NCBI GenBank assembly: GCA_030867875.1
Contig: JAOWCC010000041.1
Span: forward strand, 62,001 to 126,000
Direction: 5' to 3'
DNA from: Actinernus sp. WN-2022
Lineage: Eukaryota; Cnidaria; Anthozoa; Actiniaria; Actinernidae
DNA length: 64,000 bases
The position numbers were made by a program, and so were the translations under genes. Under the pieces are notes generated by a model that saw only the letters and a list, made by a program, of their open reading frames with translations, searched no databases and had not been told where the DNA came from. Within the stretch, counting starts at the first letter, position 1. Each line of letters opens with the position of its first letter. This document shows positions 6,437 to 62,312 of the stretch, one piece after another.

Positions 6437-6778
6437 TGCCGATCCCAGTTCGTCCAACAAGTTTTCCACAAAACATCAGCGTTATAACTATTAACACTAC
6501 ATCGCTGCTCGTGAAGTGGACTCCGTTACCAAAAATACACCAGAAGGAAGATTTCAAAGGGTACAAGGTGTCTGTAAAGAGAACAGGAGACCAAAAGAGA
6601 CGAGAAAACCAGAAGACAGAAGGAGACCAAAAGGATACTCATCCCAAAGTTGTTAATAGTACAAGCATTGTGTTGAGTGACCTTTACAATTGCACCGATT
6701 ACCTAGTGACGGTGCTTGCTTACAATCGCGATGGAGACGGGCCAATGTCCCCATCAATCAGCTTCAAGACGAATAAAG
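6437..6778 (+). CDS. RTK exon: FN3 domain 1
   Basis: The acceptor AG is at 6435-6436 and the donor at 6779; length 342, phase 1-1. Core FN3 residues are seen: 'TSLLVKW' (B-C strand Trp), 'FKGYKVSVK' and 'LYNCTDYLVTVLAYN' ending in 'GDGPMSPSISFKT'. The loop between strands C and C' carries an unusual charged insert of about 20 residues rich in Q, K, E and D, built from a short duplicated 'gaccaaaag' segment. A Cys replaces the usual residue before the 'T-(D/E)-Y' motif, as in domain 5. Several N-x-S/T sites fit an extracellular position. Confidence 0.8.
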
Positions 6779-7303
6779 GTAGCGTGTAGAATGAATACTA
6801 CATTTATTGACTGACAATTATTTCACTAAAGTAAATCTAAGACCACGGCCAAAACTATTGGAACGGCCCCCTATTCCCCCATCTCAATGTTGAGTAACCA
6901 AATGGTAAAGGAAAACGTTCGCATCTCACAACATTTAAAATGAGTGAGGGATTGTTACATGAGTCTCGGTGTTCATCTAGTTTTGTCCATTGTTGTAGCT
7001 TATTTAACCTGTTAGTTGGATAATACTGTAAAGAAAATAGAAAAGTCAAGTCATAGGACGTTAACAATTTAATATGTTTCACAGAACGTTTTTAATTATT
7101 AGATTACTCGATTTAATCAAACGTAGAACTAGAGGATAGTAATTCGTAATAGCGTTTAATTTCAGATACGTTTAATTTCATACACAATCAATAAAGTGCT
7201 AGCTCATATCTAGATGACACAATGTGTGTGTGATGCAAGCAAGCCCAGGTAAGATTGTGTGTTAATTTAGGTCCTAACAAATTTATTTTTAACCTATAAT
7301 CAG

Positions 7304-7584
7304 ACATACCTGGTGTACCATCCATTACTAACAACGAAAAGGAGCAACCTGGGTGCAGTATTCATTTGAAATGGACGCAGCCTCACAACAACAATTGCCC
7401 TGTCGATATGTACAGTGTGTACTACAGATTGGTGCAGTCCAGTGAGAGAAGCAGTCCTTGGTTTGTAGTGAACACGACTCACTTCAGTGTGACAAGTTTT
7501 ATGATGTCATGGTTCGCGCCTCTAATGCCAAGGGGATATCTGAAGTTAACTATTATAAGAAAAGAAGAATAAAAACTGACAAAG
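7304..7584 (+). pseudogene. RTK exon: FN3 domain 2, with a one-base frame break
   Basis: Acceptor CAG at 7301-7303, donor GT at 7585. The first half reads 'CSIHLKWTQPHNNNCPV' then 'YSVYYRLVQ'. The second half, 'LQCDKFYDVMVRASNAKG', is in another frame, and the switch falls between about 7458 and 7490. The exon is 281 bases long, so it cannot keep the phase 1-1 that all its sister exons keep (all multiples of three). Its closest relative is domain 6, which shares the Cys pattern and is intact. A one-base deletion, a sequencing error or an assembly error would all explain it. Because the exon is symmetric in phase, skipping it would still leave the rest of the receptor in frame. Confidence 0.75.
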
Positions 7585-47617: not shown

Positions 47618-48583
47618 GTGAGTAGACTGGTGTTATTGTGTTTTTATTCATTCATGCTAACCTTTTATTGACGAAACAATGATGACAAGTATTTTGAGTT
47701 TAGGCTGAATAACAGTACTGTATGTATCAATGGATGACTTACTAAAGTTGAAATGGCTATCAATGAAAGAGCAACGAGAGTGGCACCTGCTAAAGCTATA
47801 CACAAAGCTATACCTCATTGGCCTAATTTTTTAACTGCTCAAGCTATTTAACACAAATTCAAAAACTCGTGAATAATTCATGAGCATTTTCTCCAATCAG
47901 ATGAAGCAAATCAGTCACGTGCATGTTCCTTTGTACCTGATAAAATCTCATCATTCCAAAAAGCCCGCGGAGGGATTTGAATTCTGTCCCAGGGGGAAAC
48001 GAGGTTAATGATAGACCAGTTCGCGGTAAATTTCGACATTTTGAAAGGGGTGCAAACATGGCGCGAAATACAGTGTTTGTATGGGAATCGATGGGAATCT
48101 GATGCCAAATAAAATCCGTAAAATCGAATTTATGAAATATTCTTCAGATACAAACTTAAGATACCAGGTAAAAGATTAACATATCAAAATTTGAGGGATG
48201 TAGCTGTGCTGGGAAGCGTGCAATCGTGTTTTTCGTGTTCTTATTGATAATACGTTTTTATTTACTGTAACCTTTAATTGAAGCTTTGTCGATTCATTAT
48301 TTTCACCTGGTGGCCATCTTGGATTCAAAGCGAGGCAATCCGTTGTTTTTGCTATGCTAAACTCGTTCTAATATCCCTCACTGCGAGGCTAACCTAGCAA
48401 AAACAAAGGATTGCCTCGCTTTGAATCCAAGATGGCACCGGATAAAACGAGTGAATAGTTCTCTTCACTCACGCTTTTAATCTTAACTGCTTAAAAATAT
48501 CCCCCTTACTAAGCATATTTTGCAAACGTTTTGTTTGTATATTTTTGTATACCATTTAATTTTATGTCTAATCTATTCTTTAG
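47618..48583. other. intron with a hairpin element
   Basis: Nothing coding is recognised. A strong hairpin at 48309-48439 is listed separately. Confidence 0.5.
48309..48439. mobile_element. foldback MITE of 131 bp
   Basis: Arms of about 45 bases, 48309-48354 and 48395-48439, pair almost perfectly: 'ccatcttggattcaaagcga' with its inverse 'tcgctttgaatccaagatgg', plus 'ggcaatccgttgtttttgct' with 'agcaaaaacaaaggattgcc'. The loop is 40 bases. Confidence 0.85.
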
Positions 48584-48871
48584 CTCCCAGTGAACCACCG
48601 GCCAATGTCAAAGTCGTAAACCGGACTTCAACAACGTTACTGGTGACGTGGATACAAATTCCAGCTAGCTCTGTCCATGGCATCTTAACTGGATACATAC
48701 TGAGATATAAGAGACACAACGATAACACATGGAACTCAGTCACTACATCCGATCTTCAAGTCAATCTTGTTCATCTGGACGAAGGCACTGAGTACGACGT
48801 ACAGGTTGCAGGTTTAACACGACAAGGACAAGGAGTTTGGAGTGCTTTGGATAGATTCGTGACTTCCTCTG
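48584..48871 (+). CDS. RTK exon: FN3 domain 12 (membrane-proximal)
   Basis: Length 288, phase 1-1; acceptor 'ttctttag' ending at 48583, donor 'gtaact' at 48872. Canonical: 'PPANVKVVNRTSTTLLVTWI', 'HGILTGYILRYKRHNDNTWN', 'LDEGTEYDVQVAGLTRQGQG', 'VWSALDRFVTS'. It is the last FN3 domain before the linker. Confidence 0.88.
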
Positions 48872-50325
48872 GTAACTATGCACTATGCAAATCTAGACCT
48901 CTTCCATTGGATGGATTGGGGATTATAATTTCAAGTAAAATTTACAAAGGATGGAAGTTATAAAAATTGGACATTTAATGGTAGTTTTTAATTTCCAGGA
49001 GATGGAAATATATATATTTAAAACCAATTATAAAATAACGCAAACGAAACTCGCGCGCTGATTGGCTGAACGCCGTATTTATATGAGAATCTATAGACAG
49101 AGAAATTCGCTTTTAGTTGTCGTGCATGTTGGCACGCGATTGGGAATTAAATCAAAATGGCAAACGACAAGGAAGAATGACCAAACATTGACTTCCAAAT
49201 GAATGTGATTTTAATCAGCATTTAATCAGAGATAGTTTTACAAAAATACCACCTCATCACGACCGACTCCAATTTGAACCTAATTTGCTAACCCGCATCC
49301 GATAACCGATATATTTTTATTCGTGGATTAAACTTGGAAATAAAACTAATTCTATTTTAACTTAATTTGCGTCATAGTGCCTAGAACGTTCTAGTTATAT
49401 TGCGTGGGCCTGGAGCGGACTAGCAGCGAGTGCCCCAGGTCGAGGCAGACAAAGCGGTCTAGAGAAGGACGCCATCTTGTAATCTGTATAGGTCAGCACG
49501 TCGTCTCAGTATTATAGTTCGTTAGTATTACAGCACTCGCACTTTTACAGTTTGTACGTAAAACGGCTAAAAAGAATACTTTTCACACAATTCTCCTGAC
49601 AGACGACTAGAGTGAGGAATCGAGCTAGAGTAGTAGGGACGGGAAATCAACACTTTCATTTTTTTCCATGTCTTTTTATCTCAAACTGTTAAAATGTAGC
49701 TTTATAATAAGTTCGAGTCCAACATTTTAGTCAGCGACGAAGTCATGAAATAATAAGGCCAATTGCTATCACTGATTCTGCTGATTGATCCTTAGATAAT
49801 TCAGATAATATTTTCAAGCCGAATTTTGCAAACTCACGTGAAACAGTTGTGACGCTCTCCAAGCAAATCAAACTTGTCTATTTTTCACAGAAAAGCAATG
49901 TCAAAAGCAAGCTTTTCCCTCTTACATTACACTCAAAACCTCATCCCACTGGAACGAAGGTCCAAACAGCTATAGATCTTTCCATTGAATTTACAAAAAT
50001 AAGATTTCATTCAACTAAAGCTGCTCCAATCCAAGTTCGACGGAATCTTTATCATTCAGCCACAAAAAACACCCAGTTCAAGTCCTCTATTCCTTGAATG
50101 GCTTATGTCTTATGGCTTAAATTTCCAAGGAATGTTTCAAGGAGATATTTTCAAAATAGAGCCACACACTGACACAGAGTGCCTTCGTTTCTTTCAGTTC
50201 TGCCTTGGGGGATCTCCCGCGCTGTGCAAACTCAGTCGATTTCTGACGACTGTTAGGATAATTGATCTTCTGATCGTGCGTGCGTGAGATGTATTTCTCA
50301 TGTTTTTCCTGTTCGTTATTTTATA
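48872..50325. other. intron sequence without a recognised gene
   Basis: A GC-richer part at 49390-49500 ('gcgtgggcctggagcggact') may be an LTR or promoter scrap. A plus-strand frame at 49849-50097 is short and unlike any known family. I see nothing firm. Confidence 0.4.
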
Positions 50326-55461: not shown

Positions 55462-55646
55462 AAGGAGGAGGTGAGATGCAAAGACAAGAATTTGTAAAAG
55501 AAATGATCTTCATGAGGAACGTGGGAACTCATCCCAACATCATCAATTTTGTTGGTTACTGTAAGCAGTCTGAGCCATACAGCCTGGTGCTCGAGTATGC
55601 TGAGTATGGGGATCTGCTGAACTTCTTGAAAGCTGCAAGAAAACGG
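55462..55646 (+). CDS. RTK exon: kinase exon 2, alpha-C helix to hinge
   Basis: Length 185, phase 1-0; acceptor 'tattttcag' ending at 55461, donor 'gtatgt' at 55647. Reads 'QRQEFVKEMIFMRNVGTHPN', 'IINFVGYCKQSEPYSLVLEY', 'AEYGDLLNFLKAARKR'. The alpha-C Glu ('KEM'), the 'HPNII-' motif, the hinge 'LVLEYAEYGDL' and 'LL-FLK' helix are typical of FGFR/RET-like receptor kinases. Confidence 0.92.
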
Positions 55647-56549
55647 GTATGTCAAAACCATTTTAATTTATGATAGACGACCGTCATTTCGTAGAGCATT
55701 TCACGTTTTGCTTTTCCTGTTATTACTGTTATTCCATGTTTTCTGTTCCATTTGACGATAACTTATAACACCCGTTTGGGACGGCGAACTTCTCATTCGC
55801 CGAATTTAATAGATGAAAGAAGAGCGGCGTCTAAATCAATTGCCGTCGACGTTTGAATGATTAGGTGCGGCAGATGCTGTCACATTATGCGACACTTTAA
55901 CGACGTTGATTCAAACGCCACTCTTTTCATTCGTCGATCTTAATGCACAAACTACGATAATGTAAAAACCTTCCCATAGTTCTTTATCATTGATACGGGT
56001 CATATCTCCGACAGTGTCCGGGGAATGAAGTTCGCCGTCTGAATCAACTAGTTGCTCCGATGTCGTACTTAAAGGTATTAGGTTCAGTGCATGAAATGTT
56101 CGCCATCTGAAACGAGCCTGGATTGAAGCATTCCTCTGTCTAGCTGAGAGTAATGCAGACATTTGGTTTAACAACTAAGAGGCAAAACCATTCGCCCAAA
56201 TTTACTTTTGTATTCAGCCTTGCAATAACAATTTGCCTATGCGTAGAAATATAACTTAGGCAAAAACGAAACATTCTCCTGAGAATCAACATGGCCGCGG
56301 CGTGATTGAGGGCCATTGTTCAAATAACCCACGAAGTTATTAGGGCGCTTAGTATTGATAACGGTTTCTTATTTAGCTGAAATGATATATTTAAATAAAT
56401 AATTAATATTTATTACATGGCACGCCGGTCCATCATGAAATGGAACAATCTGATTGGTACCCTGAGCGGTCGGAATCCTGCAGTCTGGACCGCTCAGCCA
56501 GACCTTACAAGATTGAGCTTATTAATTGAGATTTTTTTCCCACCACGAA
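55647..56549. other. intron sequence with an inverted repeat
   Basis: An inverted pair lies at about 55794-55855 and 55895-55950 ('gcggcgtctaaatcaa' against inverted 'agtggcgtttgaatcaa'). A related half copy, 'ttcgccgtctgaatcaacta', follows at 56030. No gene is seen. The foldback element starts at 56550. Confidence 0.5.
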
Positions 56550-56852
56550 ATGTGAGTAGTAGGAAGAGAGGCGAATTAAGCCCCTTTTTTAGGGCGCTAT
56601 GCTAATTTTTAAGGTGCTCTCATTAATTCAGATGACGTCACAGTCCTATTGTCTTATGTCAGGCATAAATTAATTAGGGCGTACGCCCTTTTTTAGGGTG
56701 TTATGCTAATTTTTAAGGCGCGCTCATGAATAAAGTGCGGCGCGCTCATGAATAAAGTGGAATCTCATTAACTCAGAGGATTATCTATTATTTCTGTGAA
56801 TGAGGTCATCGATCAATTATATTCGGGCATGTTTGGGCAAAGCTTGAGCGGC

Positions 56853-56859
56853 TATAAAA
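56853..56859 (+). promoter_or_regulatory. TATA box of the left foldback arm
   Basis: 'tataaaa' 108 bases before the ATG at 56967. It is followed by a tandem 'aaaccagaacctgtgtctc' repeat (56858-56945). The same set is in the right arm. Confidence 0.55.
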
Positions 56860-56966
56860 CCAGAACCTGTGTCTCTGAGTGAGTACAACCCAAAGTGTAA
56901 AACCAGAACCTGTGTCTCCCAGTCAGTACAACCCAAAGTATAAAACCAGAAACCTCCAACTACAAG

Positions 56967-57320
56967 ATGGCAAGGAAACCTATATCAGAAGACACTATTT
57001 GCATCGAGGAATCGTGGAATTTGTTCTAGGATAATGCAAAAGAAAAAGTCAAACCAGACAAAGTGTGGGAGATTGTGAACGCTGTTTGCTACATGTTGAA
57101 CATTGAAATTCATCGCTCATGGAAAGTTTACCTATCTGAACTTTACAAGTTACCCTGGACCACAGTGTATCTCTTACATCTTCAGTTCAGTAACAACGGC
57201 TCTTGTATCATTGATCAAGTGCTTGAAGTAGTGAGACGTGAAATACATCCACTGAATGACAATGAACACCACGGCTTTGGCTCAAGATATTCTGTGTCTG
57301 TTCCAGAACAATTTTTTTAG
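56967..57320 (+). pseudogene. left-arm copy of the foldback gene, deleted and stopped
   Basis: The frame starts 'MARKPISEDTICIE' and jumps to 'ESWNLF', lacking 56 residues (168 bases) present in the right arm. A TAG stop then replaces the Tyr codon of 'LFYDN' (57026-57030). The rest, 'VWEIVNAVCYMLNIEIHRSW' to 'RYSVSVPEQFF', equals the right arm. The in-frame loss and one point change show that this copy is dead while the other arm is open. Confidence 0.8.
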
Positions 57321-57747
57321 AAAAGATGAAGAGTTTATGCAGATAGATTCACTTTGTAGTACGTTTTCTGAACAGTTACCTATGCAGATAGATTGACTTA
57401 TGATAATCATCAAACTTATGGTAAAATGTAATCACCCTGGTCAAGCATACGCGTAATTATTGTAAGATTAGCTTCGAATGTTAAAATACGTCGGTGTTTA
57501 CAGAACAGTGTAATAAAATCTTGTTGCAACAAATCAACTTGTTTAGTATGTCATTGAAAATAGAAAATTATTCTCTAAAACTGAACTATAATTACCATAC
57601 GAATAAAAACAAACCACCAGATAAATTAAACAAAGTTTATTCAATCTCAAAAACACCAATTTACAGTTCGTTTTCCTTATAGTCGCGGAGTTGATAACTT
57701 TCTTATTTCTCAGTTCTTGGGTTGATATAATGTACCGTGTTACAAGA

Positions 57748-57990
57748 TTACACTGATTTATGTTTCATTGATTTTTTTCTTGTTGACAAATGCTGCTTTC
57801 TAATAAAAACTTTTTTTTGAAGTTTCGCTTCTTGTAAATATGGTTTACGTTCTTGAGTTGATAACCTATGGACTTGTGCCAAGTCGTTGGATAATTTAAC
57901 AAGATACTTTGATCCACAATTAGGTAGAGGGCAGTTTTCCAAAGTCCGATTTTCCATGTTCACTCGTTGAAAGTTAGTATCAAATAGCAC
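57748..57990 (-). CDS. short zinc-finger-like frame in the foldback spacer
   Basis: 80 residues on the minus strand from Met 57990. It contains 'CPLPNCGSKYLVKLSNDLAQ', 'VHRLSTQERKPYLQEAKLQ': Cys-x4-Cys, then a helix with 'L-N-L-QVH', as in C2H2 fingers, but the second His is not clear. It has the same strand as the intact 173-residue frame and could be a downstream exon of it; I have no splice evidence. The function is unknown. Confidence 0.35.
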   Translation of the reverse strand: MLFDTNFQRVNMENRTLENCPLPNCGSKYLVKLSNDLAQVHRLSTQERKPYLQEAKLQKKVFIRKQHLSTRKKSMKHKSV

Positions 57991-58017
57991 AAATCTACTT
58001 GATCGTCCCTTTTATCT

Positions 58018-58128
58018 CCTTTCATCCTTTTTGTCGCCTTTCGTCCCTCTTTTTTTCTTTTTGAAATAAAAAAAAGAGGGATAAAAAAAGAAGAATGCGT
58101 GACGAAAGGCGCCAAAAGGGATGAAAGG
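58018..58128. repeat. palindrome in the foldback spacer
   Basis: 'cctttcatcc' and 'gtcgcctttcgtccctcttt' pair with inverted 'aaagagggataaaa' and 'gacgaaaggcgccaaaaggg', separated by 'tttttgaaataaaaaa'. The stem has some mismatches. Confidence 0.75.
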
Positions 58129-58523
58129 GTTTACTGACAAGAGACGTGTCCACATTCGGATATAGTTATCAACTCCGCTGTAAATAAGTGTTTTTGAGAT
58201 TGAATAAACTTTGTTTAATTTATCTGGTGGTTTGTTTTTATTCGTATGGTAATTATAGTTCAGTTTTAGAGAATAATTTTCTATTTTCAATGACATACTA
58301 AACAAGTTGATTTGTTGCAACAAGATTTTATTACACTGTTCTGTAAACACCGACGTATTTTAACATTCGAAGCTAATCTTACAATAATTACGCGTATACT
58401 TGACCAGGGTGATTACATTTTACCATAAGTTTGATGATTATCATAAGTCAATCTATCTGCATAAGTAACTGTTCAGAAAACGAACTACAAAGTGAATCTA
58501 TATGCATAAACTCTTCATCTTTT

Positions 58524-59045
58524 CTAAAAAAATTGTTCTGGAACAGACACAGAATATCTTGAGCCAAAGCCGTGGTGTTCATTGTCATTCAGTGGATGTA
58601 TTTCACGTCTCACTACTTCAAGCACTTGATCAATGATACAAGAGCCGTTGTTACTGAACTGAAGATGTAAGAGATACACTGTGGTCCAGGGTAACTTGTA
58701 AAGTTCAGATAGGTAAACTTTCCATGAGCGATGAATTTCAATGTTCAACATGTAGCAAACAGCGTTCACAATCTCCCACACTTTGTCTGGTTTGACTTTT
58801 TCTTTTGCATTATCGTAGAACAAATTCCACGATTCCTCTTCGGATAACATCAAGCAATCGTGCTGTCTTTGGTTTGGGTGATCTGTTTCACATTGTCTTT
58901 CTTTCTCGTCATAGATTGGTTTTTCACAGAGTGCAGCATACACCAAATGTATTGTACTTGATATCCTGTGAAATGCTCTGTTTCCTTCAACAACTTCAAC
59001 TTCATCGATGCAAATAGTGTCTTCTGATATAGGTTTCCTTGCCAT
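58524..59045 (-). CDS. 173-residue protein of the foldback element, unrecognised
   Basis: An open minus-strand frame from ATG 59045 to 58524 in the right arm. Segments: 'MARKPISEDTICIDEVEVVE', a polar middle part with 'CETDHPNQRQHDCLMLSEEE', then 'SWNLFYDNAKEKVKPDKVWE', 'IVNAVCYMLNIEIHRSWKVY' and 'LLHLQFSNNGSCIIDQVLEV'. The C-terminal half looks helical. No signal peptide, membrane segment, or catalytic motif is recognised. The ATG is preceded by a TATA box and a tandem 'ccagaacctgtgtctc' repeat on the same strand. It could be a transposition protein of the element or a captured host gene; I cannot place it. Confidence 0.6.
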   Translation of the reverse strand: MARKPISEDTICIDEVEVVEGNRAFHRISSTIHLVYAALCEKPIYDEKERQCETDHPNQRQHDCLMLSEEESWNLFYDNAKEKVKPDKVWEIVNAVCYMLNIEIHRSWKVYLSELYKLPWTTVYLLHLQFSNNGSCIIDQVLEVVRREIHPLNDNEHHGFGSRYSVSVPEQFF

Positions 59046-59152
59046 CTTGTAGTTGGAGGTTTCTGGTTTTATACTTTGGGTTGTACTGACTCGGAGACAC
59101 AGGTTCTGGTTTTACACTTGGGGTTGTACTCACTCAGAGACACAGGTTCTGG

Positions 59153-59159
59153 TTTTATA
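59153..59159 (-). promoter_or_regulatory. TATA box of the right foldback arm
   Basis: The inverted counterpart of 56853-56859, 108 bases before the ATG at 59045 of the open frame. The two promoters face each other. Confidence 0.55.
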
Positions 59160-59466
59160 GCCGCTCAAGCTTTGCCCAAACATGCCCGAATATAATTGAT
59201 CGATGACCTCATTCACAGAAATAATAGATAATCCTCTGAGTTAATGAGATTCCACTTTATTCATGAACTTTATTCATGAACGCGCCTTAAAAATTAGCAT
59301 AACACCCTAAAAAAGGGCGTACGCCCTAATTAATTTATGCATTGCCTAAGGCACTAGGACTGTGACGTCATCTGAATTAATGAGCGCCTTAAAAATTAGA
59401 ATAGCGCCCTAAAAATTAGCATAGCGCCCTAAAAAAGGGGCTTAATTCGCCTTTCTTCCTACTACT

Positions 59467-60321
59467 AACGTGTAGTAAAGTAGCGAATAATACACGTTTC
59501 TAACTGATAAAGACAATTAACGGAGACAGTAAATAAAATAACAAAAATAACAAGGTAAATAAAATAACAAAAATCTATTGTCAAAAGCAATGTAAGCATC
59601 GTCGACACAAAGCAACGCCAAATTTCATGAATTCATTTCTCTGAACACCAGCCGAAAAACAACAAAGACAACACAAAGGACAACTTAAACTAATGCATCT
59701 GGAAACGATTTTTCGGAATCAAAACAAGCTAAGAATATTGGAAAACATACCTGAAATTTTATTAGCGGAACCTCCTACTTCGTCGGTTCTTCAAAAATAA
59801 TTTGAAGAAACGCACGTGACACGAGCCAAGCTATGTCACTGACTTCATTCCTGTGAAACATAATTTTATTAAACATTTCAGAAATCAAGGCTTCACAGCA
59901 AATATCATGAAAGGAGGCTAAATCAAATTATCTTTCGTAGTCCTTCATGGCTAGTCCTTTCTGTTCAGCACGCTGCAAGGAAAGTCGGCTGAATTTGAAA
60001 ACTGTTCGTTCAGCATTTTAGTCAACCATGGATCGTAGAGTCAATACGGAACCAAAACTTGAAAATATTCACAAAACTTGGCGCCGAACTATCCTAAGCG
60101 ACGATGATGACGAGTCAGCACACAATCCCCAATATTACATTTGATGATTTGAAGAGTTTTATTTGGTAATTTCTCTGCTGTTTTTTCGAGCGAAGTAGAC
60201 GTGAATTTAACTTTTAGGTACACCAAATTTACCGCTAACTTTGAAAGGGTTTCTATCTCACACTCAGCCAATCAGGTATCACATCTCATTCAGCTGACCA
60301 ATCAGAGATAATGCCAGGATG
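59467..60321. other. intron sequence without a recognised feature
   Basis: AT-rich to 59900, then ordinary composition. A short 'aataaaataacaaaaat' repeat lies near 59530-59575. No gene is seen. Confidence 0.45.
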
Positions 60322-60386
60322 CGCCTTCTAAGTCTTGTGCCCTTGACCCCGTACCGACTCGTACTCTGAAGGATTGTCTTGATATT

Positions 60387-62312
60387 GTGCTTCCTGCCAT
60401 CACTGCTATTGTAAACTCGTCCCTACAGACTGGAGTGTTCCCTACGGCACTCAAGGAAGGTCGTGTTCTTCCCTTGATTAAGAAGTTGACCTTAGATCCT
60501 GATGAATTTGGTAATTTCAGACCGATTACGAACCTGGCATTTTTATCAAAAGTGCTTGAGAGAATGGCTGTTGGTCAATCTCGTAATTATTTAGTGATGA
60601 ACCACCTTTACCCTAGTCTGCAAGCGGCGTATCAGCAAAACCACAGCACTGAGACTGCGCTAATACGGGTTCAAGACGATATCCTCCGTGCTTTGGACCA
60701 AAAGAAAGAAGTTTTCCTGGTGCTATTGGATCTTTCTTCTGCGTTCAATACTATTGATCATAATATTCTCATAAATAGACTAAAATCTCAGTTTAGATTT
60801 ACTGGAACAGTCCTAAGTTGGTTCATGTCCTACCTCTGCAGTCGCTCTCAGAAGGTTGTGATAAATGGTACAGAGTCTAAGAGCCAACCCATTACTTCTG
60901 GTGTTCCACAGGCTCGGTGTTGGGACCTTTGTTGTTTATATTGTACTTTGCCCCTCTACAAGACATAATCAAGTTACATGGTCTGGACTGTATGCTCTAT
61001 GCTGATGACTCACAACTGTATATCAAGATAAATCCTGCGTCTCGGCAGTCAGCCTTAGTTGATTTAGATCATTGTATTACTGACATTCAAACGTTCTTTC
61101 TCGCGAACAAACTCGCATGCAATTCAAAAAAGACTGAAATAATCCATTTTTCTTCTAGGTTTAGTAAGTTGGAGCCTATCTCTAACATAATATTTGGCAA
61201 GCATAGTATAGTACCTGTAAATGAGGCCCGTAACCTAGGTGTCATTTTTGACCGTCATTTGACTATGGCCACTCAGGTTAATAAAATATGCCGGTCCGCG
61301 TTACACGCCCTTAGGAACATAGGAAGAATACGAAAATACCTCAGTAAGTCGAGTACCGAACGGTTAGTTCACGCTTTTATTTCATCAAAGATGGATTATT
61401 GTAACTCTCTTTTGTATGGGCTACCTGCCACAGAATTGTCTAAATTACAACGCGTGGAAAACGCGGCAGCAAGGCTCGTTACACGCACTAGACAGAGGGA
61501 TGAATCCTGCGTCTCGGCAGTCAGCCTTAGTTGATTTAGATCATTGTATTACTGACATTCAAACGTTCTTTCTCGCGAACAAACTGACATGCAATTCAAA
61601 AAAGACTGAAATAATCCATTTTTCTTCTAGGTTTAGTAAGTTGGAGCCTATCTCTAACATAATATTTGGCAAGCATAGTATAGTACCTGTAAATGAGGCC
61701 CGTAACCTAGGTGTCATTTTTGACCGTCATTTGACTATGGCCACTCAGGTTAATAAAATATGCCGGTCCGCGTTACACGCCCTTAGGAACATAGGAAGAA
61801 TACGAAAATACCTCAGTAAGTCGAGTACGGAACGGTTAGTTCACGCTTTTATTTCATCAAAGATGGATTATTGTAACTCTCTTTTGTATGGGCTACCTGC
61901 CACAGAATTGTCTAAATTACAACGCGTGCAAAACGCGGCAGCAAGGCTCGTTACACGCACTAGACAGAGGGAGCACATTACACCGATTTTGCGCCAGTTA
62001 CATTGGTTACCTATTAGAGAGCGAATTATTTTTAAAATTTGTTTAATAATTTTTAAGTCTATCCATTTGTGCGCGCCATCTTATATTAATGATCTAATTA
62101 AGCCTTATGTTCCTGGCCGTAGCTTGCGCTCCTCCAACCTGGGTCTTTTAACCGTCCCCAAATCTTTCTCTGCCACGCATGGGGACCGCGCCTTTTCGAT
62201 CGCAGGACCCAGGCTCTGGAATGCACTACCAGCTAGGATACGAAATGCAAATTCAATAACTAATTTTAAGTCGTGTCTTAAGACACACCTTTTCAATTAT
62301 AATTTAGAATAG
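60387..62312 (+). pseudogene. LINE reverse transcriptase and C-terminal region
   Basis: Motifs in order: 'DEFGNFRPITNLAFLSKVLE', 'LVLLDLSSAFNTIDHNIL' (first catalytic Asp), 'SGVPQ' then frame shift, 'LGPLLFILYFAPL', 'LDCMLYADDSQLYI' (YADD box), 'CNSKKTEIIHFSS', 'DYCNSLLYGLP', 'LRQLHWLPIRERIIFKICLI', 'YVPGRSLRSS', 'GPRLWNALPARIR', ending 'LKTHLFNYNLE' at 62312. The missing base at about 60912 turns 'PQGSVLGP' into another frame, and the duplication (472 bases, not a multiple of three) shifts the frame again at about 61503. The upstream endonuclease is absent. Confidence 0.87.
61031..61974. repeat. 472-bp tandem duplication inside the LINE
   Basis: Copy 1 is 61031-61502 and copy 2 is 61503-61974. 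Both start 'aatcctgcgtctcggcagtc' and end 'cgcactagacagaggga'. I see only about three or four differences (for example 'actcgcatgc' against 'actgacatgc', 'gtaccgaac' against 'gtacggaac'). Confidence 0.92.

Follow-up and report, generated by a model that had tools for sequence, protein, structure and literature searches.

A decayed foldback element in an Actinernus genome is probably a palindromic satellite of Polinton/Maverick elements

Introduction

To our knowledge, the replication and mobility of Polintons have so far mostly been inferred from gene content. Long inverted arms and symmetric genomes are familiar from several other systems. Drosophila Foldback and Galileo elements have long inverted arms with internal repeats, and target duplications in the P superfamily are 7–9 bp long. 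Adenovirus-type snap-back defective genomes are symmetric, with the same terminus and its first genes on either side, and parvovirus rolling-hairpin dimers consist of units joined head to head with a stem-loop at the axis, parvovirus-like rolling-hairpin replication depending on an HUH/NS1 replicase, a large protein. In one account of vertebrate Mavericks, the elements have (AGT)2 ends and 6-bp target duplications (PMC8097293).

Here we analyse a foldback structure in a 64,000-nucleotide stretch (the window) of the cnidarian Actinernus sp. WN-2022 (contig JAOWCC010000041.1, positions 62,001–126,000), and compare it with its relatives in the host genome (1.39 Gb), for which all copy counts are lower bounds. 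We conclude that the window element has decayed and suffered internal deletions, and that it probably belongs to a family of palindromic, non-autonomous satellites of Polinton/Maverick elements.

Results

Structure of the window element

The foldback measures 2,912 bp (56555–59466), its exact ends having been set by comparison with other copies of the family, and begins AGTAGTAGG at either end. Its parts are as follows (window coordinates).

56549–56554, no strand: left target-site duplication AATGTG, matching the right AACGTG at 5 of 6 positions
56555–57700, + strand: left arm, with terminus AGTAGTAGG, regulatory repeats, broken gene A and 3′ region (from inverted-repeat search, alignment and ends)
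56853–56951, + strand: left promoter region, with TATAAA at 56853 and 56939 and the 43-nt leader repeat
56967–57320, + strand: remnant of left gene A, with a 168-nt in-frame deletion after 57005 and TAG at 57027–57029
57748–57957, − strand: gene B, truncated, a 69-aa frame (residues 1–54 at 85% against family B)
58018–58128, no strand: polypyrimidine/polypurine stem-loop, a motif also at the axis of both full palindromes printed (L049 and L052)
58163–59466, − strand: right arm (from inverted-repeat search, alignment and ends)
58524–59045, − strand: right gene A, a 173-aa open frame, its tail shortened by a frame change common to the left arm
59061–59159, − strand: right promoter region, with TATAAA at 59159 and 59073 (− strand) and the 43-nt leader repeat
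59467–59472, no strand: right target-site duplication AACGTG

A preliminary description of this locus had proposed two inverted arms of more than 1.1 kb, each with a TATA box, a tandem leader repeat and the same gene, facing each other. This architecture was borne out: the arms are about 1.15 kb (left) and about 1.3 kb (right) long, 1,100 of 1,120 aligned positions are identical and 20 differ, and TATAAA and the leader repeat (2.3 copies of a 43-nt unit) were located in both. A mechanical inverted-repeat search of the window returned matches of 661 nt (99%), 266 nt (99%), 121 nt (93%) and 74 nt (91%). We also confirmed that the right arm keeps a 173-residue open frame and that the left copy has lost 56 residues in frame (the absent 168-nt block) and gained a stop, with TAG where the right arm has TAC; the other indels between the arms are three short ones of 18, 9 and 19 nt. 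AATAAA signals lie between the genes on both strands (+ at 57512, − at 57641). Relative to the fuller family member L044, neither half has kept gene C, and gene B survives in the left half alone.

Elsewhere in the window, a reverse-transcriptase (RVT_1) fragment is followed by a 472-bp tandem duplication with 98% matches (60312–62312). A fibronectin-III frame (48487–48963) and a kinase frame (55476–55673) both lie on the + strand, with more fn3-like frames visible by eye, and these fn3 and kinase frames may all belong to a single receptor gene that transposon pieces have broken up.

A family of near-perfect palindromes in the host genome

The search for other copies, named beforehand as a check, revealed 843 candidate gene-A places in the host genome, at least 150 of which were scored. 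Within 8 kb, 72 of the 150 scored matches face a partner, giving 36 pairs, and the other 78 have no partner among those scored; 20 loci were fetched at 20 of the 36 pairs. Eleven of these 20 loci are near-perfect palindromes, each forming one uninterrupted self-complementary match of 4.6–7.7 kb at 97.1–99.5% identity; in all 11, each half contains genes A, C and B (some B copies being split into two matches). In the fuller members, each half-element reads end, A, C (reverse), B (reverse), axis. The self-complementary match does not always run from end to end (in L050 it begins inside one end, and L053 is missing part of one end), and at the axis, 15-mer matches sharing that axis approach within 47–158 bp in eight of the ten palindromes analysed and within 197 and 296 bp in the remaining two. 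At the other fetched loci the centre is asymmetric or deleted, as in the window element. The length of the window's inverted arms, together with the many independent copies, excludes a chance origin of these arms.

Two tandem arrangements were also observed. The locus L061 (C1380:38767000-38776900, host genome) covers only one side of a pair, plus a tandem array adjoining the facing pair, with four gene-A copies at an exact spacing of 1,356 bp, each matching only to residue 161. On contig C235, gene-A matches recur every 23.1–23.5 kb (24541365, 24564513, 24588008 and 24611152), which is probably a large tandem duplication.

The largest ATG frame of the palindromes L044, L046 and L047 has 220 aa, so that a gene for a polymerase, an integrase or a capsid protein was not found in them. 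In the window element the largest such frame has 173 aa, and a Pfam search of genes A, B and C and the PC4 gene described below gave no PolB, integrase or capsid match. The palindromes are accordingly a Polinton derivative and not a full Polinton.

Ends and target duplications

Among 20 elements (19 loci and the window element), AGTAGT was located at both ends in 15, one end being missed in the other five. The 6-bp flanks agree at five or more of six positions in 12 of these 15 elements, perfectly in nine, compared with a mean of 1.0 and a maximum of 7 matching in 10,000 shuffles of flanks among elements. The target duplications that the preliminary description had suggested looking for are thus a property of the family, the window copy matching at 5 of 6 positions. 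L051 has CAAATC on both sides and was left out of the count, its variant end having escaped the pattern. The three elements without a 6-bp match at their located ends are L054, L056 and L057. In all three, inverted sequence continues beyond AGTAGT; an outer stretch common to L054 and L056 begins TACGGTGGCCC / TACGGTGGCCCATAAGGGCC, and in L056 CATTTG flanks that outer end on both sides. Genome-wide, a 24-nt end pattern gave 807 exact matches (431 forward, 376 reverse), and its reversed control gave none. The family therefore resembles Mavericks, as that account describes them (PMC8097293), in its 6-bp target duplications and in its (AGT)2...(ACT)2 ends with inverted repeats.

Arm divergence

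Over gene A, the median difference is 0.25% between partner arms (20 elements) and 2.2% between arms of different elements (171 pairs of 19 elements). The nearest arm is the partner in 14 of 20 elements, with two ties, and an arm of another element is closer in four. Over whole arms, substitutions amount to 0.16–1.29% in the nine complete palindromes measured and to 2.1–3.7% in three deleted palindromes and the window element, where the alignment is poorer; for the window element the figure is 2.9% with forced alignment of the centre and 1.8% in the arm-only alignment. Polarising 21 differing window sites (from a different alignment than the 20 counted above) against up to 38 other arms placed 12 changes in the right arm and 7 in the left, with 2 unclear. 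Because private changes are spread over both arms in this way, the window arms appear to have been identical or nearly so at insertion and to have mutated separately afterwards. The high arm identity had been attributed to youth or gene conversion; the distribution of changes does not require gene conversion, although some may have occurred.

Genes A, B and C

Relatives of gene A were found in metagenomic and animal sequences (33 proteins at E ≤ 1 in a second search), including one from Desmophyllum pertusum, 38% identical across 73% of the query, and one from Potamilus streckersoni, 32% identical across 38% of it. Many have the pattern C-x-G-C...HPSQ..H.C, followed by EEE.W and a tail RK...MDiD, and the gene A product is predicted to be a helical protein of this family. 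The window protein has only one of the two paired cysteines, as do the printed copies from L044, L045, L046 and L047, so the single cysteine is a trait of the family in the host genome and not of the window copy; it also has HPNQ, as in L044. In both arms of the window element the reading frame changes within a T run immediately ahead of the tail (RKDEEF..ID), and gene A ends before it. At 14 of the 20 family loci this tail is kept by one or more copies, whose alignment extends to residue 183. The 173-aa window frame is therefore itself shortened. The left-arm TAG is private to that arm, the family having C at this position in 38 of 38 cases. None of genes A, B and C matched a Pfam family above the cut-off.

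Relatives of gene B have a GSKYLVKLSNHLAQVH-like sequence in common. The palindrome L046 carries an extra gene per half with a PC4 domain (PF02229, E 5e-8); the PC4-domain protein, with zinc-ribbon matches, is encoded in both arms of this 7.7-kb palindrome (617–1279 and 6727–7389). To gauge constraint among elements, we calculated pN/pS from 35 loci, using open, gap-free copies only (35 of 52 well-covered copies of A, 22 of 26 of B and 29 of 32 of C), and obtained 0.68 for A (23 elements), 0.33 for B (16) and 0.83 for C (16). Genes A and B thus show signs of purifying selection, and gene C appears near neutral. In view of these signs, A and B are probably of use to the satellite or to its helper.

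Links to Polinton-like elements

One element, L045 (target duplication TGTATG), carries gene A in both of its 1.37-kb ends and, between them, genes for a 489-aa P-loop protein, a 106-aa PX-like protein and a 195-aa acidic protein, the first two of which we take to be an ATPase and a PX protein. A Pfam search of the 489-aa protein gave Viral_helicase1 as the best match (E 5.6e-4, below the cut-off), then poxvirus A32 (0.033) and adenovirus IVa2 (0.059), and the PX-like protein had no Pfam match. In another Polinton lineage, a frame that shares 45% identity with the 489-aa protein across 90 aa lies 1–5 kb from a Pfam PolB match, and the adjoining frame looks PX-like by eye, with no tblastn match. 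We place modest confidence in the packaging-ATPase-like and PX-like assignments, which follow from these comparisons. The same three genes also occur as a separate element of about 4.1 kb, with ends placed by similarity only, and as another of about 4.4 kb with the target duplication AAGATG on both sides; gene A was not found in the parts of these two elements that were read. L045 looks like a recombinant of A-type and ATPase/PX-type elements. ATPase matches also lie within facing-end intervals of 3.25 and 4.3 kb.

Longer intervals between facing ends were drawn from the first 100 of the 807 ends, and three were sampled by one 2.5-kb piece each. The piece from a 16.3-kb interval on C89 holds a second, inverted gene A. 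The intervals C235:11532290-11544813 (12.5 kb) and C235:61520710-61534914 (14.2 kb) are candidate elements bounded by facing ends and known from their 2.5-kb inner pieces, in which the motifs GNSSYGKT and CEMDTDS, presumably typical of PolB, were found. A PHROGs search of one of these two polymerase-like pieces gave a weak match to a DNA polymerase (phrog_1907, E 0.0012), and Pfam and PDB sequence searches of the pieces gave no polymerase. In the 14.2-kb interval, a gene-B relative (69% identical) lies 250 bp from the polymerase-like frame, and a 267-aa frame matches the C-terminal part of the ATPase-like protein across 69 aa at 29% identity. Among the 150 gene-A and 74 PolB matches listed, none placed gene A within 60 kb of PolB, and no integrase was identified in the sequence analysed.

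Discussion

We propose that a full-length Polinton with the same ends would supply a protein-primed DNA polymerase and an integrase, which would act on the ends common to satellite and Polinton. The displaced single strand of a palindrome could then snap back into a hairpin, and copying through this hairpin from its one kind of end would both make and renew the symmetry. A new palindrome with identical arms would insert, giving a 6-bp target duplication. Inserted copies would then decay, and the window copy would be such a relic.

The family resembles Polintons and Mavericks further in that ATPase- and PX-like genes, and probably polymerase-like ones, occur in elements whose ends are related to its own, but its palindromes are about 5 kb long and the inverted repeat spans nearly the whole element instead of the ends alone. 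Unlike adenovirus-type snap-back genomes, it is integrated and amplified genome-wide, and its genes look constrained. The likeness to parvovirus dimers is limited by L044, L046 and L047, which have no frame of more than 220 aa, although a helper could supply the replicase.

An alternative that we regard as unlikely is a segmented agent, in which the palindrome is one segment of a multipartite Polinton-like virus and other segments carry the ATPase–PX–acidic protein set and the polymerase. The ends would be common to all segments, and the A–C–B segment, holding its genes in duplicate and copied by a snap-back hairpin, would be retained for its gene products. Recurrent gene sets with related ends (A–C–B palindromes at 11 of 20 loci, and two ATPase/PX/acidic elements), the ATPase matches inside the 3.25- and 4.3-kb intervals, the recombinant appearance of L045 and the pN/pS values below 1 for A and B would all fit such an agent. 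However, the 14.2-kb interval unites a polymerase-like frame, a gene-B relative and the 267-aa frame, as one-piece Polintons would, and the small elements may be deletion derivatives. That the family consists of cut-and-paste elements, either of the Foldback/Galileo type (P superfamily) or another DNA transposon with long terminal inverted repeats, is quite improbable. Such elements share its long inverted arms and internal repeats near the ends, but the family has 6-bp instead of 7–9-bp target duplications, (AGT)2 ends, a different gene content and arms that reach almost to the axis, and related ends occur on elements with ATPase-like genes and on candidate elements with polymerase-like ones. 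The Foldback-type label first given to the locus is consequently not supported; symmetry is the usual state of this Polinton-related family.

We give very little credence to the view that the main effect of the element is to produce double-stranded RNA or siRNA against itself or its host. The facing TATA boxes and near-identical arms favour it, whereas the AATAAA signals that lie between the genes in either orientation could stop transcripts before the axis, and genes A and B of the family look constrained. A chromosomal inverted duplication or assembly artefact at this locus is scarcely credible, since the family has many unlinked copies, which are spread over several contigs and differ in their target duplications. 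An artefact in particular is very unlikely, because those unlinked copies have 6-bp duplications and the window copy has its own imperfect one.

Read as a palindromic satellite of Polinton/Maverick elements, a large integrated family of near-complete palindromes with Polinton ends would record how such ends are copied. Arms that are identical at the start point to snap-back synthesis from one template, and the differences that later separate them give every insertion its own clock. The family also suggests that Polintons have satellites with conserved genes of their own, which may be parasites, helpers or parts of a defence.
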